A stretch of 64,000 bases of DNA from Chloroflexota bacterium. Its GTDB lineage: Bacteria > Chloroflexota > Dehalococcoidia > Lucifugimonadales > Lucifugimonadaceae. The stretch is taken from positions 1-64,000 of the forward strand of contig JABIFF010000002.1 in assembly GCA_018650845.1 (NCBI GenBank). The letters run 5' to 3'. The position numbers were made by a program, and so were the translations under genes. Shown here piece after piece: positions 20,315-31,228 of this stretch (its first letter is position 1; the number at the start of each line of letters is the position of its first letter). The notes under the pieces are model-generated. The model worked only from the letters and a program-made list of their open reading frames with translations, had not been told where the DNA came from and did not search any database.

Positions 20315-21376
20315 CTAGATAGACATGTCGGCTGGAATAGCCTTGATGGTCTCTTTCTCAGTCTGGAAAGTGCTTGTGATGTCCGGGTTGGTCATCTCGC
20401 CCTTTTCCTGATGCAAGAAGCACGTAGCAAGCTGATGTTCGTTCATCAGGTACTGCAGTGGCTTCGATTCGTTGCAGTGTTCCATCACAGCAGGGCAACG
20501 GTCTGCGAATCGGCAACCGTTCATCTGTGTGTCGCCAGTGTCCCAGTTTTGCTGAGGCGGCTCAGAACCCCAACGGTTCTTAGGATCAGGCTGCGGAATC
20601 GACTCGATCAACAGCTGTGTGTATGGGTGCTGAGGACTCGGGATAACCGCATCAACGGTTCCCGCTTCTACAACAGTTCCACGGTACATAACCATGATGT
20701 TGTCGCTGATTTGGTAGGCAGTTGTGAGGTCATGTGTGATGTACACAACTGAGATACCAAGATCTCGGTTTAGTCGGCGAATCGAGTCGAGAATTGTTGC
20801 TCGAAGCGAAGCGTCAACCATGGAAACTGGCTCGTCAGCGAGAATCACACGAGGCTTCAGAAGAAGCGCCCGAGCAACCATGATTCGCTGTCGCTGACCA
20901 CCACTCAATTGGTGAGGGAAGCGTCCGAGAGTTTCCTCGGGTAGTAGACCAACCATCTCGAGTGCATCTTCGATCATGCGCTTCTTCTCTTTGTCCGAAG
21001 ACGCAAGCTTGAAGTTCTTGATCGGAGCATCGAGAACGTGGTCGACTTTATAGAACGGGTTGTAAGACTCAAAGGGATCTTGGAAGATCGGCTGAATCTC
21101 ACGACGGAAGTTTCGGCGTTCACGTCGCGTTAGCTTCGTGAAGTCCTTACCTCTGTAAAGCATTCGTCCATCGCTAGGCACGTGGCTTCCAAGAAGAAGT
21201 CGGGCAAGAGTTGTCTTACCACTTCCACTTTCACCAGCAACCGTTGTGATAGAGGGTTCGTCTTCGTCGATGCTGAGTGAAACATCATCAACGGCAACGG
21301 TAACCTGTCCGTTTCCGAACATACCTTCGCTACCGAAGGTTTTGGTTACGTGATCGAGTTCGAGGAACGTGCTCAC
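20315..21376 (-). CDS. Peptide/nickel-type ABC transporter ATPase (DppF/OppF-like)
   Basis: A 353-residue ATP-binding subunit of an oligopeptide-type ABC importer. It has Walker A GESGSGKTTLA, the signature LSGGQRQRIMVARALLLKP, and Walker B RVILADEPVSMVD. The C-terminal oligopeptide-transporter region carries C-rich CRFADRCPAVMEHC...ATCFLH, which may bind an Fe-S cluster in this family. Unusually the Walker B is followed by VSMVDASLR, as in other DppF proteins. It starts with GTG overlapping the DppD-like stop by four bases (GTGA) and is the last gene of a four-gene minus-strand operon. Confidence 0.93.
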   Translation of the reverse strand: MSTFLELDHVTKTFGSEGMFGNGQVTVAVDDVSLSIDEDEPSITTVAGESGSGKTTLARLLLGSHVPSDGRMLYRGKDFTKLTRRERRNFRREIQPIFQDPFESYNPFYKVDHVLDAPIKNFKLASSDKEKKRMIEDALEMVGLLPEETLGRFPHQLSGGQRQRIMVARALLLKPRVILADEPVSMVDASLRATILDSIRRLNRDLGISVVYITHDLTTAYQISDNIMVMYRGTVVEAGTVDAVIPSPQHPYTQLLIESIPQPDPKNRWGSEPPQQNWDTGDTQMNGCRFADRCPAVMEHCNESKPLQYLMNEHQLATCFLHQEKGEMTNPDITSTFQTEKETIKAIPADMSI

Positions 21377-22437
21377 GATTGGCCCTCACCTTCGTACAAG
21401 TGGCAAGCCGTTTCACGACGACCGCCAAGATTTAGTGTCTGAGGAACCGATTGGTCGCACTTGTCGAACCGCGATGGGCATCGATCTGCGAACGCACAGC
21501 TATTCGGCAAATTAATCAACCGTGGGGGAAGTCCGGGAATTCCAAGAAATTCTCGCTTCTCCTGCAGTGATGGCAGAGATCGAATCAGCAGCTTCGTGTA
21601 AGGGTGCTTAGGATCGCTAAACACTTCTTCCACTGGGCCAACTTCAACAAGCTTGCCTGCGTACATCACACCAATGGTGTCGGCGAACTGGGCAACAAGA
21701 CCCATATCGTGACCCACAAGCATGATCGAAGCATCCAAGCCCTCTTGCAACCGACCAAGCGTCTGCATGATCTGTCGCTGAACAACAACGTCAAGAGCTG
21801 ATGTTGGCTCGTCAGCGATGATGAGGTTAGGGCGGAGGGAAATTCCGATCGCCATAGCCACACGCTGCTTCATTCCACCTGAAAGTTCATGTGGGTACAA
21901 ACGGGCTACACCGGGGCGTAGACCAACACGAATCAGTAGATCGCGAACGAACTCTTTTAGTTCGTCTTTGGACAGCGCTTTGTCATCCTCGCTACGGTGG
22001 TCGAGGAACCCATCAACGATCTGTCGTTCAATCCGCATAACCGGGTTGAGCGAGTTCATTGCACCCTGGGGAACAAGAGCCAGCTCAGAAAGCCGAGTCT
22101 TGCGCATTTCATTTTCCGAAAGCTTCGTGACATCTCGCCCATTGAGAGTCACGCTGCCTTTGGCGATGTGCCCAGGAGGGCGGGTGAGTCGCATCAGGCC
22201 CATAGCAAGAGTTGTCTTGCCTGAACCCGATTCACCAACGAGTGCGAAACGTTCACCCTGCTTGAGAGTGAATGTGACGTCGTCACACGCTTTTACTGTG
22301 CCGGAATCGGTCTCGTAGTAGACCGAAAAGTTCTCGACGACCAGAGCGTCGACATCGGTAATCCGAGCGTCCGCTCTATAAGTCTGTATTGCTTGTTCGG
22401 TGCTCAAACGCGTTTCCTCAATCGTGGGTTGGACCAT
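21373..22437 (-). CDS. Peptide/nickel-type ABC transporter ATPase (DppD/OppD-like)
   Basis: The second ATPase subunit, 354 residues from the upstream ATG. It has Walker A GESGSGKTTLAMG, the signature LSGGMKQRVAMAIGISLRP and Walker B LIIADEPTSALDV, followed by the Cys-containing C-terminal segment CAFADRCPSRFDKC. Pairing of GGM-signature and GGQ-signature ATPases is standard for DppD/DppF systems. The ATG at 22437 lies 34 bases inside the permease gene. A TTG at 22407, overlapping the permease stop (TTGA) with GAGG about eight bases upstream, is an equally plausible start. Confidence 0.93.
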   Translation of the reverse strand: MVQPTIEETRLSTEQAIQTYRADARITDVDALVVENFSVYYETDSGTVKACDDVTFTLKQGERFALVGESGSGKTTLAMGLMRLTRPPGHIAKGSVTLNGRDVTKLSENEMRKTRLSELALVPQGAMNSLNPVMRIERQIVDGFLDHRSEDDKALSKDELKEFVRDLLIRVGLRPGVARLYPHELSGGMKQRVAMAIGISLRPNLIIADEPTSALDVVVQRQIMQTLGRLQEGLDASIMLVGHDMGLVAQFADTIGVMYAGKLVEVGPVEEVFSDPKHPYTKLLIRSLPSLQEKREFLGIPGLPPRLINLPNSCAFADRCPSRFDKCDQSVPQTLNLGGRRETACHLYEGEGQS

Positions 22438-23327
22438 TCATCCAATCCTGATGAAATCAAGAACAGGCTGACGAATACGATCACGATTGCAGCCAATGGC
22501 GGAAGCCACCACCACCACATACCGAGCGTGATCGAGGAGAACTGAATGTTCCAGTAAATCGTCATACCCAGAGTTGGGTCACTAAGGTTGCCTAGTCCGA
22601 TGGCTTCAAGGCCGATAGAAGCGAGAATCGCTCCTGCGACAGAACCAACAAGGCTGGCAGTGATGTACGGAATAAGGTTTGGCATCATTTCCTTGAAGAT
22701 AATGCCCATGCCGCTGGTACCAGAAAGTCGTGAAAGCTCTACATAAGCCTGTTCACGCATTACCAGCACCTGAGATCGAATCGTGCGTGCTGGGAAAACC
22801 CAACTGGTGAGACCAATTGCGATACCAAGCTCATCGGTAGAAAGTTCTCGACCGATGTTGATTCGAACAAGAATCAGAATGAGAAGAGCTGGCATAGCCA
22901 GTCCAACGTCAACTACTGATCGAATAGCGCCGTCAACGACACCACGGTAGTAAGCAGCCAAGAAAGCTGCGACGGTACCTAGTCCGATAGCCACACCACC
23001 GGCGATTAGGCCGATACGTAGCGTGAGCGGAGTACCAAGAATTGCAACAGCGAGAAGGTCTCGTCCCTGCGTGTCAGTACCGAACGGGTGTGCCCCAGTA
23101 GGGCCGAGCCGTGTTGGTGCAGACAGTGGTCGGAACATTTCTGTTTCCCAAACCAAGTGGCCGAGGCCTACAAGGAACAGCATTCCGAACAGTAGCACCG
23201 ATCCTACGATCAGCGATGGGTTACGGAGTGCGTACTTCTTGATTGGAGTAACGCGTTCTTCATTGAACTGTTTCCAGCCGCCCTGGCCCGCAACGTCAGC
23301 TTGTAGAGATGAAAGTGATTCAGTCAT
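22404..23327 (-). CDS. Peptide/nickel-type ABC transporter permease (DppC-like)
   Basis: A 307-residue inner-membrane permease. An N-terminal cytoplasmic stretch leads to the first membrane helix (SLIVGSVLLFGMLFLVGLGHL) and the typical periplasmic segment HPFGTDTQGRDLLAVAILGTPLTLRIGL, a hallmark of DppC/OppC. The cytoplasmic coupling loop includes EQAYVELSRLSGTSGMGIIFKEMMPN (the EAA motif). Its ATG overlaps the DppB-like stop as TAATG, indicating translational coupling. Confidence 0.93.
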   Translation of the reverse strand: MTESLSSLQADVAGQGGWKQFNEERVTPIKKYALRNPSLIVGSVLLFGMLFLVGLGHLVWETEMFRPLSAPTRLGPTGAHPFGTDTQGRDLLAVAILGTPLTLRIGLIAGGVAIGLGTVAAFLAAYYRGVVDGAIRSVVDVGLAMPALLILILVRINIGRELSTDELGIAIGLTSWVFPARTIRSQVLVMREQAYVELSRLSGTSGMGIIFKEMMPNLIPYITASLVGSVAGAILASIGLEAIGLGNLSDPTLGMTIYWNIQFSSITLGMWWWWLPPLAAIVIVFVSLFLISSGLDEWSNPRLRKRV

Positions 23328-24406
23328 TACGAGTTCCTCACCCTGATCCTAGGATCAAGCAACGGGTAGAGAACGTCGAGCAGGAACGTTGCACCTGCGA
23401 TACCAAGAATGATCACGATCACAATTCCTCGAATAACGAAGAAGTCTGAAAGTCGAATCGCCTGGAAAAGAATGTCGCCAATACCTGGGTATGAGAACAC
23501 ACGTTCAACAAGCACCTGACCAGTAACGATTGTTCCGAGAACAAGAGCGAGACCGGTTACCTGTGGAAGCAGAGCGTTTCGCACTGCGTACCGCATGAAG
23601 ATGCGTGAACCCTTCAAGCCTTTAGCATCGGCCTGAATCATGTAGTCCTCACCCTGCGTGTTGATCATCATGCCTCTCATACCGATGGCCCAGAAGCCAA
23701 TAGCAGAGAAGATGATTGCGAACGCTGGCAGTATTGCGTGCCTGAGCACGTCGATAGCGAACTCGAAACTCATGTTAGGCAGAGTCGCCGGTGAATAACC
23801 ACCGAACAACGGCAGCCAACCGAGTTTGAATGCAACCACGAAAATCAAAATCATGGCAAGCAAATACTGCGGAATTGCCGAAAGGGTTAGCAGCGGCATA
23901 AACACATATTGAAGCCAGCCCGGTTTTCTAGGCCAGCCCAGTATCGCCCCCGCGAGCGTCCCTAAGACGAATGCAAGCAGCGTTACCGTTCCCATCAGTC
24001 CGAGAGTCCACATTAGTGACTCAAAAACGATGTCGTTCACAGTTCTAGGGAAAAACGCAATGGAAACACCAAGATTCAGTTTCGCAAGATCCTTAAGGAA
24101 GTTGGTGTACTGAACCCACATAGGTTGATCCAAGCCAAACCGCTTCTGGTAAGACTTGGCCATCGCATCAAGACCCGTCTGCATCGCACCACCGCGTTGT
24201 GCTTCGAGTAGAAGCTTCTCTTTAACGGGGTCCTGTCCGGAAAGTCGAGGAATGATGAAGATGATCGTGCTGGCGAGCCAGACTACAAAGAGAAAGAACA
24301 GGAATCTCTTCACAATGAAATGACCGAGAACACCCATGATTATCCGGGTGATCGATGTGCCATTCGACGGTGAAGAGTTATCAACTGCCTGCGTTTGTTC
24401 TGTCAC
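23327..24406 (-). CDS. Peptide/nickel-type ABC transporter permease (DppB-like)
   Basis: A 359-residue inner-membrane permease and first gene of the transporter operon. The N-terminal helix (FLFFLFVVWLASTIIFIIPRL) is followed by a periplasmic loop with RFGLDQPMWVQYTNFLKDLAKLNLG, the usual DppB/OppB signature (LGLDxPxxxxY..), and the EAA-type loop EDYMIQADAKGLKGSRIFMRYAVRNALLPQ. The C-terminus ends YPLLDPRIRVRNS, the conserved DPRIR motif of these proteins. The gene faces away from the solute-binding lipoprotein gene across a 404-base regulatory gap. Confidence 0.94.
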   Translation of the reverse strand: MTEQTQAVDNSSPSNGTSITRIIMGVLGHFIVKRFLFFLFVVWLASTIIFIIPRLSGQDPVKEKLLLEAQRGGAMQTGLDAMAKSYQKRFGLDQPMWVQYTNFLKDLAKLNLGVSIAFFPRTVNDIVFESLMWTLGLMGTVTLLAFVLGTLAGAILGWPRKPGWLQYVFMPLLTLSAIPQYLLAMILIFVVAFKLGWLPLFGGYSPATLPNMSFEFAIDVLRHAILPAFAIIFSAIGFWAIGMRGMMINTQGEDYMIQADAKGLKGSRIFMRYAVRNALLPQVTGLALVLGTIVTGQVLVERVFSYPGIGDILFQAIRLSDFFVIRGIVIVIILGIAGATFLLDVLYPLLDPRIRVRNS

Positions 24407-24810: not shown

Positions 24811-26679
24811 ATGACATTTACTGAGAGGTGGAGAATTCTCTTCCTCGCCATGCTTTCAATTGCCCTTGTTGCGGCAATTGCTTGTGGTGGCGGAGATGAC
24901 GAAGACTCTGACGATGGCGCAGGCTCCGAGCCGGCTGCCACGACTGCACCTGCTGCAGACCCTACAGAGGCTCCGGCCGCTGAAGAGCCTGCAGGCAAGG
25001 TTGCAATTGAAGAGATCGATCGGGACGACACATTCATCGGCTACCTTGGTGGTGCTGAAGGACGTTTCGTAGACCACGAACTCTGGAACCCATACGCCAT
25101 TGGTGCAAACCACCAATCTGGTCCAAACATCATCTTTGAGCCACTCGCATTCTTTAGTGCGTTTGACGACAAGACGATCCCTTGGCTCGCTGAGAGCTGG
25201 GACTGGAACGGCGACTTTACTGAGTTGACGATGAACCTACGATCAGGAATTAACTGGTCAGACGGTGAAGAGTTCAACGCAGACGACGTTGTTTACACGT
25301 TGAACACTCTTAAGGACCTCAAAGAAGAAGTCCGCTGGGGTAACGACATCGACAACGCTATGAACCACGCGGAAAAAGTCGACAGCCACACCGTAAAGGT
25401 GTTCCTTGACCGACCAGACCCACGATTCATGTTCCTCCTTACATACAAGTTCGACATTGGTGTGTACATGGTGCCAGAGCACCACTACAACGGCCGAGAC
25501 TGGACTACGTTCAAGGACTACGACCCAGCCAAGGGATTCCCGCTAAGCACGGGCCCATGGAAGGTTGTTTCTGGAACACCAGAGCAGAAAATCATCGACC
25601 GCCGCGATTCGTGGTGGGGTGAAGGCGTATCTGACCTCGGTCAGTTCGGCAAACTGCCTGGACCACAACGTGTCATCTACTTGCCAACACCTGACCAGAC
25701 GGTTCGGTCGCAGGCTTTGATTTCTGACACTGTTGACTACTCAGCAATGACCACACCTGCGGTTATCGTTGAGACAATGGGCAAGAACTCTGATCTTGTC
25801 ACTCACACTGGTACAGACTCTCCTTTCGGATATGTTGACTGGTGGCCGGTCTCGATTGGTTTCAACGACTCCGGTAAGTTCGGTCCTTACGACGACAAGA
25901 ACGTTCGATGGGCATTCAGCTACTTCCTTAACCGGCAGGAACTGAGTGACGTAGCCTACGACGGTGCAGCGGCATTCAACCCACTCACCATGCCTGGTTA
26001 CCCACCACTGAAGAAGTACTTTGACTCAGTAGCGGACCTACTAGCAGAGATGGACACCACCGAGCACAACCCAGCCAAGGCTGCAGGTTTGCTAGAAGGT
26101 GCTGGCTACTCGAAGGATGGCGATGGCAACTGGGTTGACGCTCAGGGCAACGGCATCAACTGTGAAATCATCGGTTTCAGCCCGTGGGTGGACCTCGGTC
26201 CTATCACAGCTGAGCAGCTCCGACGTGAGGGCATCAACGCCACTTACTCTCAGCCGCCTGATGCTTCTTCACGAATGGCTGAAGGTAACTTCGAATGTCT
26301 GATGTTTGGACACGGCGGATCGGTCCGTGACCCTTACTTCACCATGAAGCTTTACCAGTCAGCATCAGTAAACATTCCTGGTGGTCACCAGGTCAACTTC
26401 TACCACTGGGAAAACGAGCGGTGGGATGAACTTACTGACGAAGTCGCAAAGACTCACCCTGATGACATCGACACGATGCAGGAACTATGGCACGAAGCCA
26501 TGGAAATCTGGATCACAGAACTTCCGGACGTTCCAGTTCTTGAGTTCTACCACCGCATCATCATGAGTGAAAAGCGATGGACTAACTGGCCTCTTGGCGG
26601 ACAGACCTCTGGCTACGTGAACGAGGCCTCTTGGCACCTCACGTGGGGATTGGTTCTGCACGCTCTCGAAGCTAAGTAG
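24811..26679 (+). CDS. ABC transporter solute-binding lipoprotein, family 5 (peptide/oligosaccharide)
   Basis: A 622-residue substrate-binding lipoprotein. The signal peptide ([15 protein letters not shown]...) ends in AAIAC, followed by an acidic Asp/Glu/Ala/Pro-rich tether of some 45 residues. The family 5 core shows [47 protein letters not shown] and the later GPWKVV and [14 protein letters not shown] segments. Family 5 proteins bind peptides, nickel, opines or oligosaccharides; several Trp/Tyr residues near the C-terminus would allow a sugar ligand. It is divergent from the four transporter genes and ends just before a strong terminator, so it is probably a separate, more abundant transcript. 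Codon use looks strongly biased compared with its neighbours. Confidence 0.94.
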
Positions 26680-26724
26680 TAAAACTCTAGTAGTTTTTAC
26701 TACTTGAGCTAACAGACGCAAACG

Positions 26725-26758
26725 AAGCGCCCCTGTCATTTGGCAGGGGCGCTTTTTT
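26725..26758 (+). terminator. Rho-independent terminator after the solute-binding lipoprotein
   Basis: Perfect stem GCGCCCCTG (26727-26735) / CAGGGGCGC (26744-26752), extended by AA/TT, with an eight-base loop and followed by TTTTTT. It lies 46 bases past the stop codon. Confidence 0.92.
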
Positions 26759-26869
26759 ATTTAACTCACAGGCTTTTCTATTCCCGATCGAATCTCACCA
26801 CGTGCTGCTTGTGGAGTGCTATATCCTTCGGCAAAAGTTCAAATCAGATTCAGGGTGGGAATTCGAAAA

Positions 26870-27370
26870 TTGTCTTCTATCGTTCAAATTCGCTCGGCGT
26901 TTGCAAATAAGCCGTCGTTAGTCATGCTAGGACTTACGCTGTTGCTCGCTGTGGTCGCCGCATGCGGTGCATCAGAGGCTCCGGCGGTAGAAGATGCCGG
27001 TTCGGTGGATGAGGAGGGGCTACGGCTAACTACACGCCCGGAAGCAAACTACTCGATCGATGACCTAGTCGCTGTGGGTTTCAAGAAGAATCGGCAGTTC
27101 GGCCCTGAAACCGTGCCGGGGTCACTTGATGTTTGGTACGGCTTCTTCGCCCAGAGAGATATTGAAGTGAGGTTTTACGAATCACATGCCGATGCGATCG
27201 AGTTCGGTGTGGAACCGGCTGAGTTGATAATCGCTCGCACAGCAGGACAACGCGATCCTCTGATACCAGTTGTGAACCTGTATCCCGCTTACGCTGTGGT
27301 CGGCAATACAGTGATGCTCTGCGAACGCCAGCTTTCAACGTGCGAAGCGCTGATCGAAGCATTGCCGTAA
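26870..27370 (+). CDS. Small lipoprotein, divergent member of a six-gene paralogous family
   Basis: A lipoprotein of about 166 residues of unrecognised family. The signal peptide ends in VAACG. The mature part shares with the five minus-strand genes downstream the order xxYxxDDLVAxGFKK, YGFF, IEVRFYESHADAIEFG, and the C-terminal GNTVMLCE followed by a second Cys (STCEALIEAL). It lacks the central DRR segment present in the others and is the most divergent. I chose the TTG at 26870 because it gives a normal signal peptide and follows GGGTGGG; a GTG at 26816 would give an unusually long leader. It converges on the other family members across a shared terminator. Confidence 0.72.
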   Translation: MSSIVQIRSAFANKPSLVMLGLTLLLAVVAACGASEAPAVEDAGSVDEEGLRLTTRPEANYSIDDLVAVGFKKNRQFGPETVPGSLDVWYGFFAQRDIEVRFYESHADAIEFGVEPAELIIARTAGQRDPLIPVVNLYPAYAVVGNTVMLCERQLSTCEALIEALP

Positions 27371-27409
27371 TTGATCTTGCACTAGAGCTTCGGACCAACG
27401 GGTTAAATA

Positions 27410-27441
27410 AAAAGACCGACGATCAAATCGTCGGTCTTTTC
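27410..27441. terminator. Bidirectional rho-independent terminator
   Basis: Perfect 13-base stem AAAGACCGACGAT (27411-27423) / ATCGTCGGTCTTT (27427-27439) with a three-base loop, A-rich on the left and T-rich on the right. It separates the convergent lipoprotein genes ending at 27370 and 27460 and can serve both. Confidence 0.92.
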
Positions 27442-27459
27442 TTATCTACAGAACTGAAG

Positions 27460-28032
27460 CTATGCAGCAGGTTCGGTAAGTGCGAGAAGATTCTCGCAGT
27501 TGGCGAATGCTTCGGATGATTCGTCGCCTTCACAGAAGAGAATCATGTTTCCTCGAATAACGTATTCGAGATACCGAGCCGAGTAAGAACAGCTGGAATG
27601 CGGTGTCTGGGCGGCACGACTGCACTTGCGGCGGTCTCTCTCGCCCTCTTCCCAAAGAACTTCGTCTCCAGTGACAATCGCATCTTCGCCTGTAATCGAA
27701 TCGGCGTAGGAAACACCCTGAGCCACAGCTTCACCGTGTGTCTCATAGAAGCGGATTTCGTAAGCGAGCTGGTTGTATACAGCTTGAACAGCGCCAAGAG
27801 CTGCGGGCAACTCATCGACGTCGTAATCCTTCACTGTCTTTACCCCGGACGGTCGTAGAGCCTCAAACTCCTCTACTGTGTAGATCCGTCCGTCGTCCAC
27901 TACCCGTTCTATGGCCACTTCACCGCCGCTGGCACCTGAATCTGAGCCACATGCGGTAAAGAGCGCTGCCGACAGGATTCCCAAAAGGAACACTGCGGCA
28001 ATTTTCTTAGTGAACTGAATTGTTGCTGGCAC
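27460..28032 (-). CDS. Small lipoprotein of the six-gene paralogous family
   Basis: A 190-residue lipoprotein of unrecognised family. The signal peptide ends in FTACG. The mature protein has RIYTVEEFEAL, TVKDYDVDELPAALGAV, YEIRFYETHGEAVAQG, DAIVTGDEVLWEEGERDRRKC and a C-terminal YVIRGNMILFCEGD with a final Cys (FANCENLL). It and its upstream neighbour have an additional Cys pair (RRKC...SSC / RRQC...GKC) in the middle that the three more distal paralogs replace by a Gly-rich loop. It is the last gene of a minus-strand operon, three bases after the preceding stop. The likely location is the outer face of the membrane. Confidence 0.75.
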   Translation of the reverse strand: MPATIQFTKKIAAVFLLGILSAALFTACGSDSGASGGEVAIERVVDDGRIYTVEEFEALRPSGVKTVKDYDVDELPAALGAVQAVYNQLAYEIRFYETHGEAVAQGVSYADSITGEDAIVTGDEVLWEEGERDRRKCSRAAQTPHSSCSYSARYLEYVIRGNMILFCEGDESSEAFANCENLLALTEPAA

Positions 28033-28035
28033 TGT

Positions 28036-28614
28036 CTATTGCACCGCTGCCATTAGGTTGGCACATGCCTGGTGCGAAGTTTCAGTATCTTTACCTTGGC
28101 ACATCAACACCATGTTGCCGACTACGACATAGTCGAAGTATTTCGGGTTGTCGCACTTGCCCGAGTGGTGCCCACCGTTACCCGCACACTGGCGTCGATC
28201 CGTAATCCCTTCGGTCCAACGTTGTACGTCCTTGAGCAAAACTGCTTCGGCACCGGTCGCCTCGTCGGCGAAATCGACACCTTGCGCCATTGCGGCAGCA
28301 TGATCAGCGTAGAAACGAGCTTCGTACTCTTGTCGGTTGTAAGGATCAGAACCGTAGAAGCCGTAGATGGCAGTTATTGCTCCATCAAGTCCTTCTACAT
28401 CGTAGTCATCGTCGTGTTTGAAAAATTCAACACCTGTGATGTCAGCGTCTGTGTAGATACGATCGGTGGCGTCGATCTTTGCGATAACACCTTCTCCTGA
28501 AGATCCGTCACCATCGCCGCCATCACTGCCGCAAGCAACTGCCGCTATTGAAAGCGCTGCTATCGCAACAAGCAGTATCAGCAGCCGTGCCTTGCCACTG
28601 TTTTTCTGACTCAT
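28036..28614 (-). CDS. Small lipoprotein of the six-gene paralogous family
   Basis: A 192-residue lipoprotein of unrecognised family. The signal peptide ends in AAVACG, followed by a Gly/Asp/Ser-rich tether. Family motifs are RIYTDADITGVEFFK, YDVEGLDGAITAIYGFYG, YEARFYADHAAAMAQGVDFADEATG, RWTEGITDRRQC and YVVVGNMVLMCQG with a final Cys (HQACANLM). Closest in this window to the downstream neighbour (shared middle Cys pair and length). Its ATG has AGGGAGCTTG upstream, a good ribosome-binding site. Confidence 0.76.
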   Translation of the reverse strand: MSQKNSGKARLLILLVAIAALSIAAVACGSDGGDGDGSSGEGVIAKIDATDRIYTDADITGVEFFKHDDDYDVEGLDGAITAIYGFYGSDPYNRQEYEARFYADHAAAMAQGVDFADEATGAEAVLLKDVQRWTEGITDRRQCAGNGGHHSGKCDNPKYFDYVVVGNMVLMCQGKDTETSHQACANLMAAVQ

Positions 28615-28773
28615 ATCAAGCTCCCTGTAATTGTTCGATACCCACCATTTTTTTGAGATGAAAAATAGTTGTGTGGTGAGTTCGCCAAATATACCTGTTT
28701 ACAACTCAGCAGTCATTCACTTGTTTAACAACATTGGTGAACGACCCCGTTCATCTAATTCAAGATGATGTAA

Positions 28774-29406
28774 TTATGCACCTTCTCCTCTGATCAATGC
28801 GACGAATGGCGCACATTGGTCGAGAGAATGCTCCGATGTTCGTCCTTCGCACAATATCACTACGTTTCCTAAAATTACGAAATCGCCGTACCGAGGGTTT
28901 TGACTGCCACGTGATCCGCCACCAACAATAATGCGACGATCACGCACGCCTTCGTCCCACATTGCATCTTCAGCGTTGAGCGACGCACCATCGCCGGAAG
29001 CATCCTGTGCAAACGGCGTTCCCTTCTCGACAGCTACTTGATGACTGGGATAAATCCGTATTTCGTAGTTGAGCGAACCGAGGCCTGGCGGCGTCCAAAA
29101 TCCTACATAAGCTTCTTCAGCTCCATCGAGTCCTTCAACGTCGTAAGTTTTTCCCTTTTTCCAACCAGTGGATTTGATGTCATCGAGAGTGAGCACCCGC
29201 TCGAAGTCAGAGATTTTGACGAGAGTTGCGGCAGTAGGTTTATCTGAAGAGCTACCACCGCAGCCAAGAACGATAGCCATAAGCGCTGAAATCATCACAA
29301 AAACTACGAGTTTTGAGCCGGTTTTCTTAATGCGGCGCTTGTCGCTCAAATTCTTTTCGCCGGCGGATACGGACTGTTCAGGGCTATTGAAATTGAATTG
29401 AGTCAT
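28774..29406 (-). CDS. Small lipoprotein of the six-gene paralogous family
   Basis: A 210-residue lipoprotein of unrecognised family. Family motifs are RVLTLDDIKSTGWKKGK, YDVEGLDGAEEAYVGFW, YEIRIYPSHQVAVEKGTPFAQDASG, MWDEGVRDRRIIVGGG and YGDFVILGNVVILCEG with a final Cys (DQCAPFVALI). I place the start at the ATG at 29406, which overlaps the stop of the preceding paralog as TAATG; a longer frame to 29484 would run through that gene. The N-terminus then has about 35 polar residues before the membrane segment and LGCGG lipobox, longer than a usual signal peptide, so it could be a signal anchor. Very similar to the next gene, suggesting recent duplication. Confidence 0.75.
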   Translation of the reverse strand: MTQFNFNSPEQSVSAGEKNLSDKRRIKKTGSKLVVFVMISALMAIVLGCGGSSSDKPTAATLVKISDFERVLTLDDIKSTGWKKGKTYDVEGLDGAEEAYVGFWTPPGLGSLNYEIRIYPSHQVAVEKGTPFAQDASGDGASLNAEDAMWDEGVRDRRIIVGGGSRGSQNPRYGDFVILGNVVILCEGRTSEHSLDQCAPFVALIRGEGA

Positions 29407-29981
29407 TACGAGTCGTCGCCCCTGATTTGTGCAATGAACGGTGCACATTGTTCCAGCGCCTGTTCTGAATTTCGACCTTGGCAAAGAATTACGAGGTTTC
29501 CGAGTATTACGAAATCTCCGAATTTAGCGGTTTGGGTTCCGCCGCCTTGCCCAACCATTAGTCGACGGTCTCGTACACCGTCGTCCCACATTGAAGTTGT
29601 GGAATTCAGGGCCGCATCTTCGCCAGACGCATCTTCGGCGAATGGTGTGCCGTCATCGAGCGCAACTTGGTGACTCGGATACACACGTATTTCATAATCG
29701 AGTGGACCGATTACAGGATGCTTCCAGAAACCGACCTGCGCATCCTCTGCGCTGTCGAGTCCCTCGACGTCGTATGTTTTGGTTTCTTTCCAGCCTGCAT
29801 TTTCAACATCAGCGATCGAAAGGATTCGATCAAAATCTGAGATTCGCTCGAAGCTGTCTTCGGCAGCAGAATCTGATGCGCTAGAGCCGCAGCCAATTAC
29901 GAGCAAAGAAGTGATTATTGATAGTGCCGCTAAACTGACGGTACGAACGAAATATCGCTTATTCACCGGGAACCAGCGCAT
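29406..29981 (-). CDS. Small lipoprotein of the six-gene paralogous family
   Basis: A 191-residue lipoprotein of unrecognised family. The signal peptide ends in VIGCGSS. Family motifs are RILSIADVENAGWKETK, YDVEGLDSAEDAQVGFWK, YEIRVYPSHQVALDDGTPFAEDASG, MWDDGVRDRRLMVG and FGDFVILGNLVILCQG with a final Cys (EQCAPFIAQIRG). Nearly every motif matches the downstream paralog at 28774, making this pair the most recent duplicates in the cluster. Its start lies 23 bases inside the preceding paralog. Confidence 0.76.
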   Translation of the reverse strand: MRWFPVNKRYFVRTVSLAALSIITSLLVIGCGSSASDSAAEDSFERISDFDRILSIADVENAGWKETKTYDVEGLDSAEDAQVGFWKHPVIGPLDYEIRVYPSHQVALDDGTPFAEDASGEDAALNSTTSMWDDGVRDRRLMVGQGGGTQTAKFGDFVILGNLVILCQGRNSEQALEQCAPFIAQIRGDDS

Positions 29982-30537
29982 TTGCCATCAGGCCGCACCG
30001 TTCAAGCGATACTTCAGGGTCGGGTCCCTGGCAAAGCATTATTACGTTCCCGAAAATTGCGTAATTGCCGAACTTTGGACCGATACCACTCCTAGCACCA
30101 CCGCCGGCACCTCCGCCGATGATCATTCGACGATTCTTCACACCATCTTTGTAGGTAGCGTCGTCTTCGCTAAGGATCGCATCGGCACCGGTACCTTCTT
30201 CGGCCATCGCTGTACCTTGATCGATAGCAGCCTGATGCGATTCGTAGAAGCGCACTTCGTAGTCGTAAGGTTCACCGCTGCCGATTCGTAGGAAGCCGAA
30301 ATAAACCTCGGTTGCCCCGGGGAGTCCTTCTGTGTCGTAGGTACTGGATTTCTTGTAACCGGTCGCCATCACGTCATCGAGTGTGAGCACAACTCCAGGA
30401 TCACTAATCTTGGGGAAGAGTGCTTCTTCGGAATCGCTCGAACCGCAGGCTGTTGTTGCAGTGAGCAGCATTGCCGTAATTAGGGCAACGATCAAAGTGA
30501 GTCGATGTCTGTGAAGGGCCGGATACTTCGAATGCAA
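29959..30537 (-). CDS. Small lipoprotein, first gene of the paralogous lipoprotein operon
   Basis: A 192-residue lipoprotein of unrecognised family. The signal peptide ends in TTACGSS. Family motifs are VVLTLDDVMATGYKKSS, YDTEGLPGATEVYFGFL, YEVRFYESHQAAIDQGTAMAEEGTG, YKDGVKNRRMIIGGGAGGG and FGNYAIFGNVIMLCQG with a final Cys (ERCGLMANAL). AAGGAG precedes the ATG by eight bases. It opens the five-gene minus-strand array; the nearest upstream gene, a degenerate nuclease-like lipoprotein, ends about 110 bases away. Confidence 0.76.
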   Translation of the reverse strand: MHSKYPALHRHRLTLIVALITAMLLTATTACGSSDSEEALFPKISDPGVVLTLDDVMATGYKKSSTYDTEGLPGATEVYFGFLRIGSGEPYDYEVRFYESHQAAIDQGTAMAEEGTGADAILSEDDATYKDGVKNRRMIIGGGAGGGARSGIGPKFGNYAIFGNVIMLCQGPDPEVSLERCGLMANALVPGE

Positions 30538-30646: not shown

Positions 30647-31228
30647 TTAGTCCCTATAGGTCAGACCCGGGATGCGGAATTCGTTCGGCTCCCCGCGTTG
30701 GAACGCCTGGTAGTCGTGCCACAGGCAGCCGCTATCGTGTTCTTTTGCTGCTGCTTCTTGAAAAAGGAACCAGCCCACATGTTTGCCATCTTGGCTCCAT
30801 GCGAGAGCTAGCCCATCTCGAATAAGCGAGTTTTCTATAGAAACTCCATCGGCGGTGTAGAAGTAATAGTGATTTGAGTCGTTCCTAACTGAATCGTCAG
30901 GGCCGGGTTCGATTCGGATGGATTGACCGGCAAGTTTCGTCAATTGTTCCTTAGCTTCGATGGCGCAATCTTCAGGTTGGTTCAGCACATAGACGCCATA
31001 CATCTGAATGTGCCCGATCGATGTACTAAGCGTGTTGGCGTCAATCACTCCAGAAACATCGACCAATTCGCAATTTGGGCAGGTGAGTGCGGGAACGGTT
31101 GGCACTGGGGTCGGCTCAACACTTTCATTGGCGCATCCCATTATCAATATCAGCACGATCAACACTATCGGCCACACAGGATTTGCGTGGCGTATTGCTG
31201 GGTATGACAAGGACTCAAACGTCTTCAT
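30647..31228 (-). CDS. Degenerate staphylococcal-nuclease-fold lipoprotein
   Basis: A 193-residue lipoprotein (lipobox IMGC32) with a CPNC pair at residues 50-53, followed by an SNase-like OB fold at about residues 55-170. The recognisable landmarks are GHIQMYGV, EAKEQLTKLAGQSIRIEPGPDD, YYFYTADGVSIENSLIRDGLALAW and QEAAAKEHDSGCLW. The catalytic Arg before the first Asp is replaced (HIQM instead of FRL), that Asp is absent, and the Arg in the usual YGR motif is missing (SNHYYFY). Nuclease activity is therefore unlikely; a binding role outside the membrane seems more plausible. It lies just upstream of the paralogous lipoprotein array, same strand. Confidence 0.72.
   Translation of the reverse strand: MKTFESLSYPAIRHANPVWPIVLIVLILIMGCANESVEPTPVPTVPALTCPNCELVDVSGVIDANTLSTSIGHIQMYGVYVLNQPEDCAIEAKEQLTKLAGQSIRIEPGPDDSVRNDSNHYYFYTADGVSIENSLIRDGLALAWSQDGKHVGWFLFQEAAAKEHDSGCLWHDYQAFQRGEPNEFRIPGLTYRD

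Follow-up and report, generated by a model that had tools for sequence, protein, structure and literature searches.

Standard family-5 (Opp/Dpp-type) ABC importers have one binding lipoprotein. The transporter described here is of this type, with an SBP_bac_5 binding protein, but small lipoproteins unrelated to that protein, five or six of them, are encoded alongside it. In the window (the whole stretch of DNA analysed, 64,000 nucleotides), six such proteins lie above the curated cut-off of Pfam PF20650 (DUF6810), a family of unknown function. The preliminary description of the locus regarded the family as unrecognised, which its presence in Pfam contradicts; what is new is that the lipoproteins form a conserved set, in a fixed order, linked to a particular importer. 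We found no paper that mentions DUF6810, and none that describes the importer linkage, the five orthogroups or the fusions to FtsX-type permeases and ankyrin repeats reported below. The linkage provides a first functional lead for this domain.

Candidatus Lucifugimonas marina JH1073, from the order Candidatus Lucifugimonadales (SAR202 cluster, class Dehalococcoidia), is the closest named relative. In the ocean, SAR202 bacteria are abundant, and expanded enzyme families are thought to let them exploit complex dissolved organic matter (PMC6946804, PMC10444878). An expanded family of surface lipoproteins linked to just one importer would, if true, be an uptake-side counterpart of these enzyme expansions.

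Six paralogous lipoproteins of the DUF6810 family

All six open reading frames, one on the plus strand and five on the minus strand between positions 26816 and 30537, were confirmed at the coordinates in Table 1. The minus-strand genes are separated by 3 bases and 159 bases or overlap (two cases), in agreement with the preliminary description (overlapping or 3–160 bases apart), and the true start of m3a is probably downstream of the one used for 28774–29484. The six PF20650 matches score 63.5 to 178.1 bits against a curated cut-off of 25 bits, and their E values (2.5e-17 to 1.1e-52) exclude chance similarity. Along the 141 positions of the profile, m1, m3a, m3b and m4 match from 1–3 to 137–140 and m2 from 10 to 139, and the match of P0 is split in two by the absence of its middle segment. 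The profile also matched all of the 56 diverse relatives scanned.

The claim of six paralogous small lipoproteins, each with a lipobox and two retained C-terminal cysteines, held up well: an alignment spanning the whole mature domain has 18 invariant columns, including the lipobox cysteine and both C-terminal cysteines, and a lipobox is present in 6/6. The mature part of P0 starts at the cysteine at position 26963. We regard the six as paralogous and predicted to be lipid anchored, and across the family a strict lipobox pattern was found in 147 of 173 domains, most of the others being lipobox-like by inspection. The C-terminal cysteine pair, spaced by 7 in P0 and by 12 in the others, is disulfide-capable and may form a disulfide. 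The shared motif list proposed earlier is right in outline; P0 departs from it in having neither the W-x-(E/D)-G-x-x-D-R-R segment nor the G after LC(E/Q), and only m2 and m3a carry YDVEGLDGA exactly. The extra middle cysteine pair noted in two members belongs to m1 and m2, and five cysteines are kept in 14/14 orthologs of each.

An NCBIfam search of the six proteins gave nothing of note, a sequence search against solved structures gave nothing significant, and no binding-protein family was matched in Pfam by the six or their 56 relatives. Half-against-half profile comparison gave no sign of an internal duplication of the domain.

Table 1. Positions of the features discussed; lipoproteins are predicted, and unprefixed positions refer to the window
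Feature	Location	Strand	Basis
ABC ATPase, second of the importer	20315..21376	-	ABC ATPase by sequence; orthologs adjoin the other ATPase elsewhere
ABC ATPase, oligopeptide type	21373..22437	-	ABC_tran and oligo_HPY
ABC permease 2	22404..23327	-	BPD_transp_1
ABC permease 1	23327..24406	-	BPD_transp_1
Family-5 solute-binding lipoprotein of the linked importer	24811..26679	+	SBP_bac_5, E 1.1e-55
Intrinsic-terminator-like hairpin between binding-protein gene and P0	26724..26755	+	Strong hairpin, then T
P0, short DUF6810 lipoprotein beside the binding-protein gene	26816..27370	+	PF20650, E 2.5e-17; orthogroup P0 in tree; model pLDDT 83
m1, DUF6810 lipoprotein with extra middle Cys pair	27460..28032	-	PF20650, E 6.4e-33; m1 clade 98/99
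m2, DUF6810 lipoprotein with extra middle Cys pair	28036..28614	-	PF20650, E 2.9e-43; m2 clade 92/83
m3a, DUF6810 lipoprotein	28774..29484	-	PF20650, E 4.5e-52; m3 orthogroup
m3b, DUF6810 lipoprotein, duplicate of m3a	29406..29981	-	PF20650, E 1.4e-48; two-member m3b clade 100/100
m4, DUF6810 lipoprotein	29959..30537	-	PF20650, E 1.1e-52; m4 clade 100/100; model pLDDT 90.6
FtsX-type permease with ankyrin repeats and DUF6810	L115:1-4557		DUF6810 match and Pfam
FtsX-type permease with ankyrin repeats and DUF6810	L121:4409-8827 (= L126)		DUF6810 match and Pfam
FtsX-type permease with ankyrin repeats and DUF6810	L127:861-5333		Near-identical start and DUF6810 match

Distribution and age of the set

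In the samples searched, every genome with DUF6810 was a SAR202 relative. It occurs in 49 of the 76 genomes of the GTDB family of the window, with up to 31 matches per genome; in a sample of the class it was present in 13/393 genomes, all 13 from the same GTDB family, and in a sample of the phylum (301 genomes) only in the genome of the window itself. Scanning 84,980 genomes of bacteria and archaea for a conserved peptide pattern, an approach that reaches only sequences retaining that one pattern, returned 45 loci, all in SAR202, Dehalococcoidia or Chloroflexi records. The lineage restriction with variable copy number that had been anticipated is therefore what these samples contain. Counted by hand from their positions, about 18 DUF6810 genes are present in the genome of the window, six of them in this cluster.

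The earlier suggestion that the family had expanded by tandem duplication does not stand if a recent event is meant. In a tree of 118 sequences, comprising relatives together with the members of 14 clusters of the genus, each of m1, m2 and m4 falls in its own 14-member clade (support 98/99, 92/83 and 100/100), m3 is a single clade when m3a and m3b are both counted (100/99), and P0 is one clade that includes two P0 genes of other genera. Two loci (L108 and L110) have four minus-type genes in the order m4-m3-m2-m1 that group with the same orthogroups. The tree shows that the cluster consists of five old orthogroups (P0 and m1–m4) whose m4-m3-m2-m1 order is kept in several genera, and it rules out recent tandem duplication as the origin of the cluster. 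The sole recent pair is m3a/m3b (28774 and 29406), a late duplication seen, among the loci compared, only in the window and in JH1073. For ortholog pairs with computable dS, comparisons of the window with relatives gave dN/dS values of 0.03–0.08, which are rough, with dS near saturation; where measurable, the orthologs are under strong purifying selection.

Linkage to one importer

The peptide/sugar ABC transporter reported beside the cluster is present: its binding protein, two permeases and ATPases of the oligopeptide type lie to the left of the DUF6810 genes. Eight further loci (L087, L089, L093, L094, L096, L099, L108 and L110) still have the binding protein and some or all of the importer beside their DUF6810 genes, and the right-flank genes for epimerases and transhydrogenase were not seen there; stretches of four genomes (G317, G373, G367 and G336) likewise retain the importer side and not the right flank. 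A minus-strand lipoprotein gene directly upstream of m4 (30647–31228), which has no Pfam match, adjoins the cluster in most loci of the genus; by eye, its product resembles a staphylococcal-nuclease-like domain.

Across the 76 genomes, 35 have both DUF6810 and the orthologous binding protein, 1 has the binding protein only, 14 have DUF6810 only and 26 have neither (Fisher p 5e-9, a test that ignores shared ancestry). Together with the synteny, this supports a real association with the adjacent transporter; the preliminary description had proposed to test their co-occurrence. Both are missing from G305 (genus g180), G322 and G323 (g183) and G338 (g185), congeners of which have both. Many of the 14 genomes with DUF6810 alone are incomplete, but some (G356, G358 and G368) are more than 90% complete. 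The single-contig genome G307 has 32 SBP_bac_5 matches, in about 31 proteins, and DUF6810 is found beside just one of them: all nine of its DUF6810 matches lie at 2.589–2.595 Mb, as a single cluster adjoining the orthologous binding protein. This pattern, with the linkage and the joint loss, indicates that the importer context is probably ancestral, and we infer that scattered copies are derived.

The hairpin that follows the binding-protein gene and precedes P0 has a similar counterpart in 12 of 13 loci of the genus and in L087, L089 and L093. Its conservation makes a single simple transcript of the two genes unlikely, so P0 is probably transcribed apart from the binding-protein gene or by read-through. 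The hairpin at 26724–26755 is GC-rich, and its stem sequence differs among species, with pairing maintained by eye.

Predicted structure

An AlphaFold model of m4, built with 56 relatives, is an alpha/beta domain predicted with high confidence (mean pLDDT 90.6, pTM 0.85), and the model of P0 (pLDDT 83) has the same core order of strands and helices. Foldseek returned no match at E<=0.001 for either model. The best second-look alignment of the m4 model was to the extracellular domain of the mycobacterial kinase PknH (Z 6.1, rmsd 6.3, 121 residues), a middling value by the guidance of the tool, followed by TiME with Z near 5.0. The PknH sensor domain (PDB 4esq) and the TiME soluble domain (7cu9) share with m4 a weak likeness over the full domain, all three being extracytoplasmic alpha/beta domains, but there is no sequence match, Z is only 5–6 and the likeness is absent for P0, among whose structural matches PknH does not appear. 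Most matches of the P0 model were to protein-kinase N-lobes, which we read as a common sheet-plus-helix arrangement. No Pfam match to PknH_C (PF14032) was found among the 56 relatives scanned or in the genome of the window. The modelled resemblance to PknH, for whose extracellular domain disulfides and a ligand cleft have been reported (PMC3601408), is a weak lead rather than a fold assignment.

Dispersed copies and domain fusions

In genera g1 and g182, most DUF6810 copies lie scattered away from the importer, which means that a role in transport cannot account for every member of the family. One or two DUF6810 domains also occur together with ankyrin repeats within large polypeptides of FtsX-type permeases in at least three assemblies (Table 1), a recurrence that makes an assembly artefact an improbable source of the fusion. 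In the genome of the window, a 391-residue lipoprotein ends in a C-terminal DUF6810. The insertion into FtsX-type permeases and this lipoprotein point to DUF6810 as a putative extracytoplasmic binding or interaction domain. The 1.3 Mb assembly G317 (L122, L123 and L133) has a large expansion, with 31 DUF6810 matches, many of them single among unrelated genes.

A possible role in ligand handling

We hypothesize, at a probability of about 45%, that the DUF6810 proteins of the cluster are lipid-anchored, ligand-handling accessory proteins of the adjacent importer. The co-occurrence and synteny with the importer support this role, one of several that the preliminary description had left open, and the low dN/dS values, the presence of DUF6810 within FtsX-type permeases, the neighbouring genes of sugar catabolism and the monoderm envelope reported for SAR202 isolates also speak for it; the lack of a convincing fold match, the scattered copies, the hairpin and the 14 genomes without the orthologous binding protein count against it. 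The six lipoproteins would be anchored to the outer face of the cytoplasmic membrane, as SAR202 group I cells look monoderm, and P0 and m1–m4 would be an old ordered set dedicated to one family-5 importer. Each paralog may use a small alpha/beta domain, pinned by a disulfide, to bind or present one variant of the substrate of the importer, handing the ligand to the binding protein, perhaps in physical contact with the transporter, or keeping it near the permease. Later, the family would have spread, leaving extra scattered copies in some genera, and an FtsX-type permease would have acquired DUF6810 within its extracytoplasmic part.

The cluster neighbourhood includes a gluconolactonase-type protein, an FGGY sugar kinase, an enolase-superfamily protein and epimerase-type proteins, and the lactonase or the kinase recurs by the cluster in other genera. 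Published work on cultured SAR202 supports the breakdown of sugars and sugar acids as well as a monoderm envelope, and fucose and rhamnose improved the growth of one isolate (PMC10444878). With these neighbours, a carbohydrate-type substrate seems more likely than peptides, and a carbohydrate or sugar acid would probably be the ligand. Enolase-superfamily genes are also found repeatedly near solo DUF6810 copies; we discounted them as evidence because such genes are very numerous in the lineage, at 80 per genome in cultured SAR202 strains (PMC10444878). A bolder version of this reading, in which one importer is served by a ligand-capture array of at least five old, non-interchangeable lipoproteins that have a fold unseen in the PDB and are individually matched to variants of a diverse dissolved-organic substrate, seems to us unlikely.

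The many scattered solo copies in varied neighbourhoods, some of which include cell-division or housekeeping genes, are also what would be expected if DUF6810 were a structural or cell-envelope domain of a general surface coat or wall, with the importer linkage a matter of inherited gene order and no shared mechanism. The 31 matches in a 1.3 Mb assembly and the likely separate transcription from the binding-protein gene fit such a domain as well. However, the linkage outlasts the loss of the other flank and extends over several genera, the importer and DUF6810 are jointly missing in some genomes, and every copy in G307 is at this one importer, and we consider an envelope function a minority possibility. 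If PknH is taken as the analogy, the lipoproteins would be extracytoplasmic sensors that signal on binding a small molecule, which fits its extracellular domain being the best structural alignment over most of the m4 domain and the insertion of DUF6810 in a membrane permease. Yet the Z of that alignment falls below what the tool regards as meaningful and P0 does not repeat it, neither a kinase fusion nor a PknH_C match was seen, and a lone lipoprotein cannot signal across the membrane; sensing is accordingly improbable.

Predicted surface location and variable copy number would suit proteins for adhesion or phage interaction that diversified through copy number. Such a role is very improbable, given that strong purifying selection, where measurable, and a retained gene order are unlike those of fast-diversifying surface antigens. 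Phage defence, also raised earlier, gains no support and was rejected: for the DUF6810 proteins, the best PADLOC match had E 0.053 and a low score, PHROGs gave no match of note, and searches of phages, plasmids and viral contigs found no homologs.

For the ligand-handling role, the cultured strain JH1073 has the same cluster, so expression and binding are open to testing. Two other arrangements involve lipoproteins. At L132:1906-4192 (G000:C9), two adjacent lipoproteins have a common cysteine-containing repeat region (ECLTGELGDDAL...-like), and one of them terminates in DUF6810. At L128:3428-5772 (G000:C12), three divergent DUF6810-like lipoproteins lie in tandem downstream of a sulfatase-like gene, and only the C-terminal part of the model is covered by the best Pfam matches of these lipoproteins.
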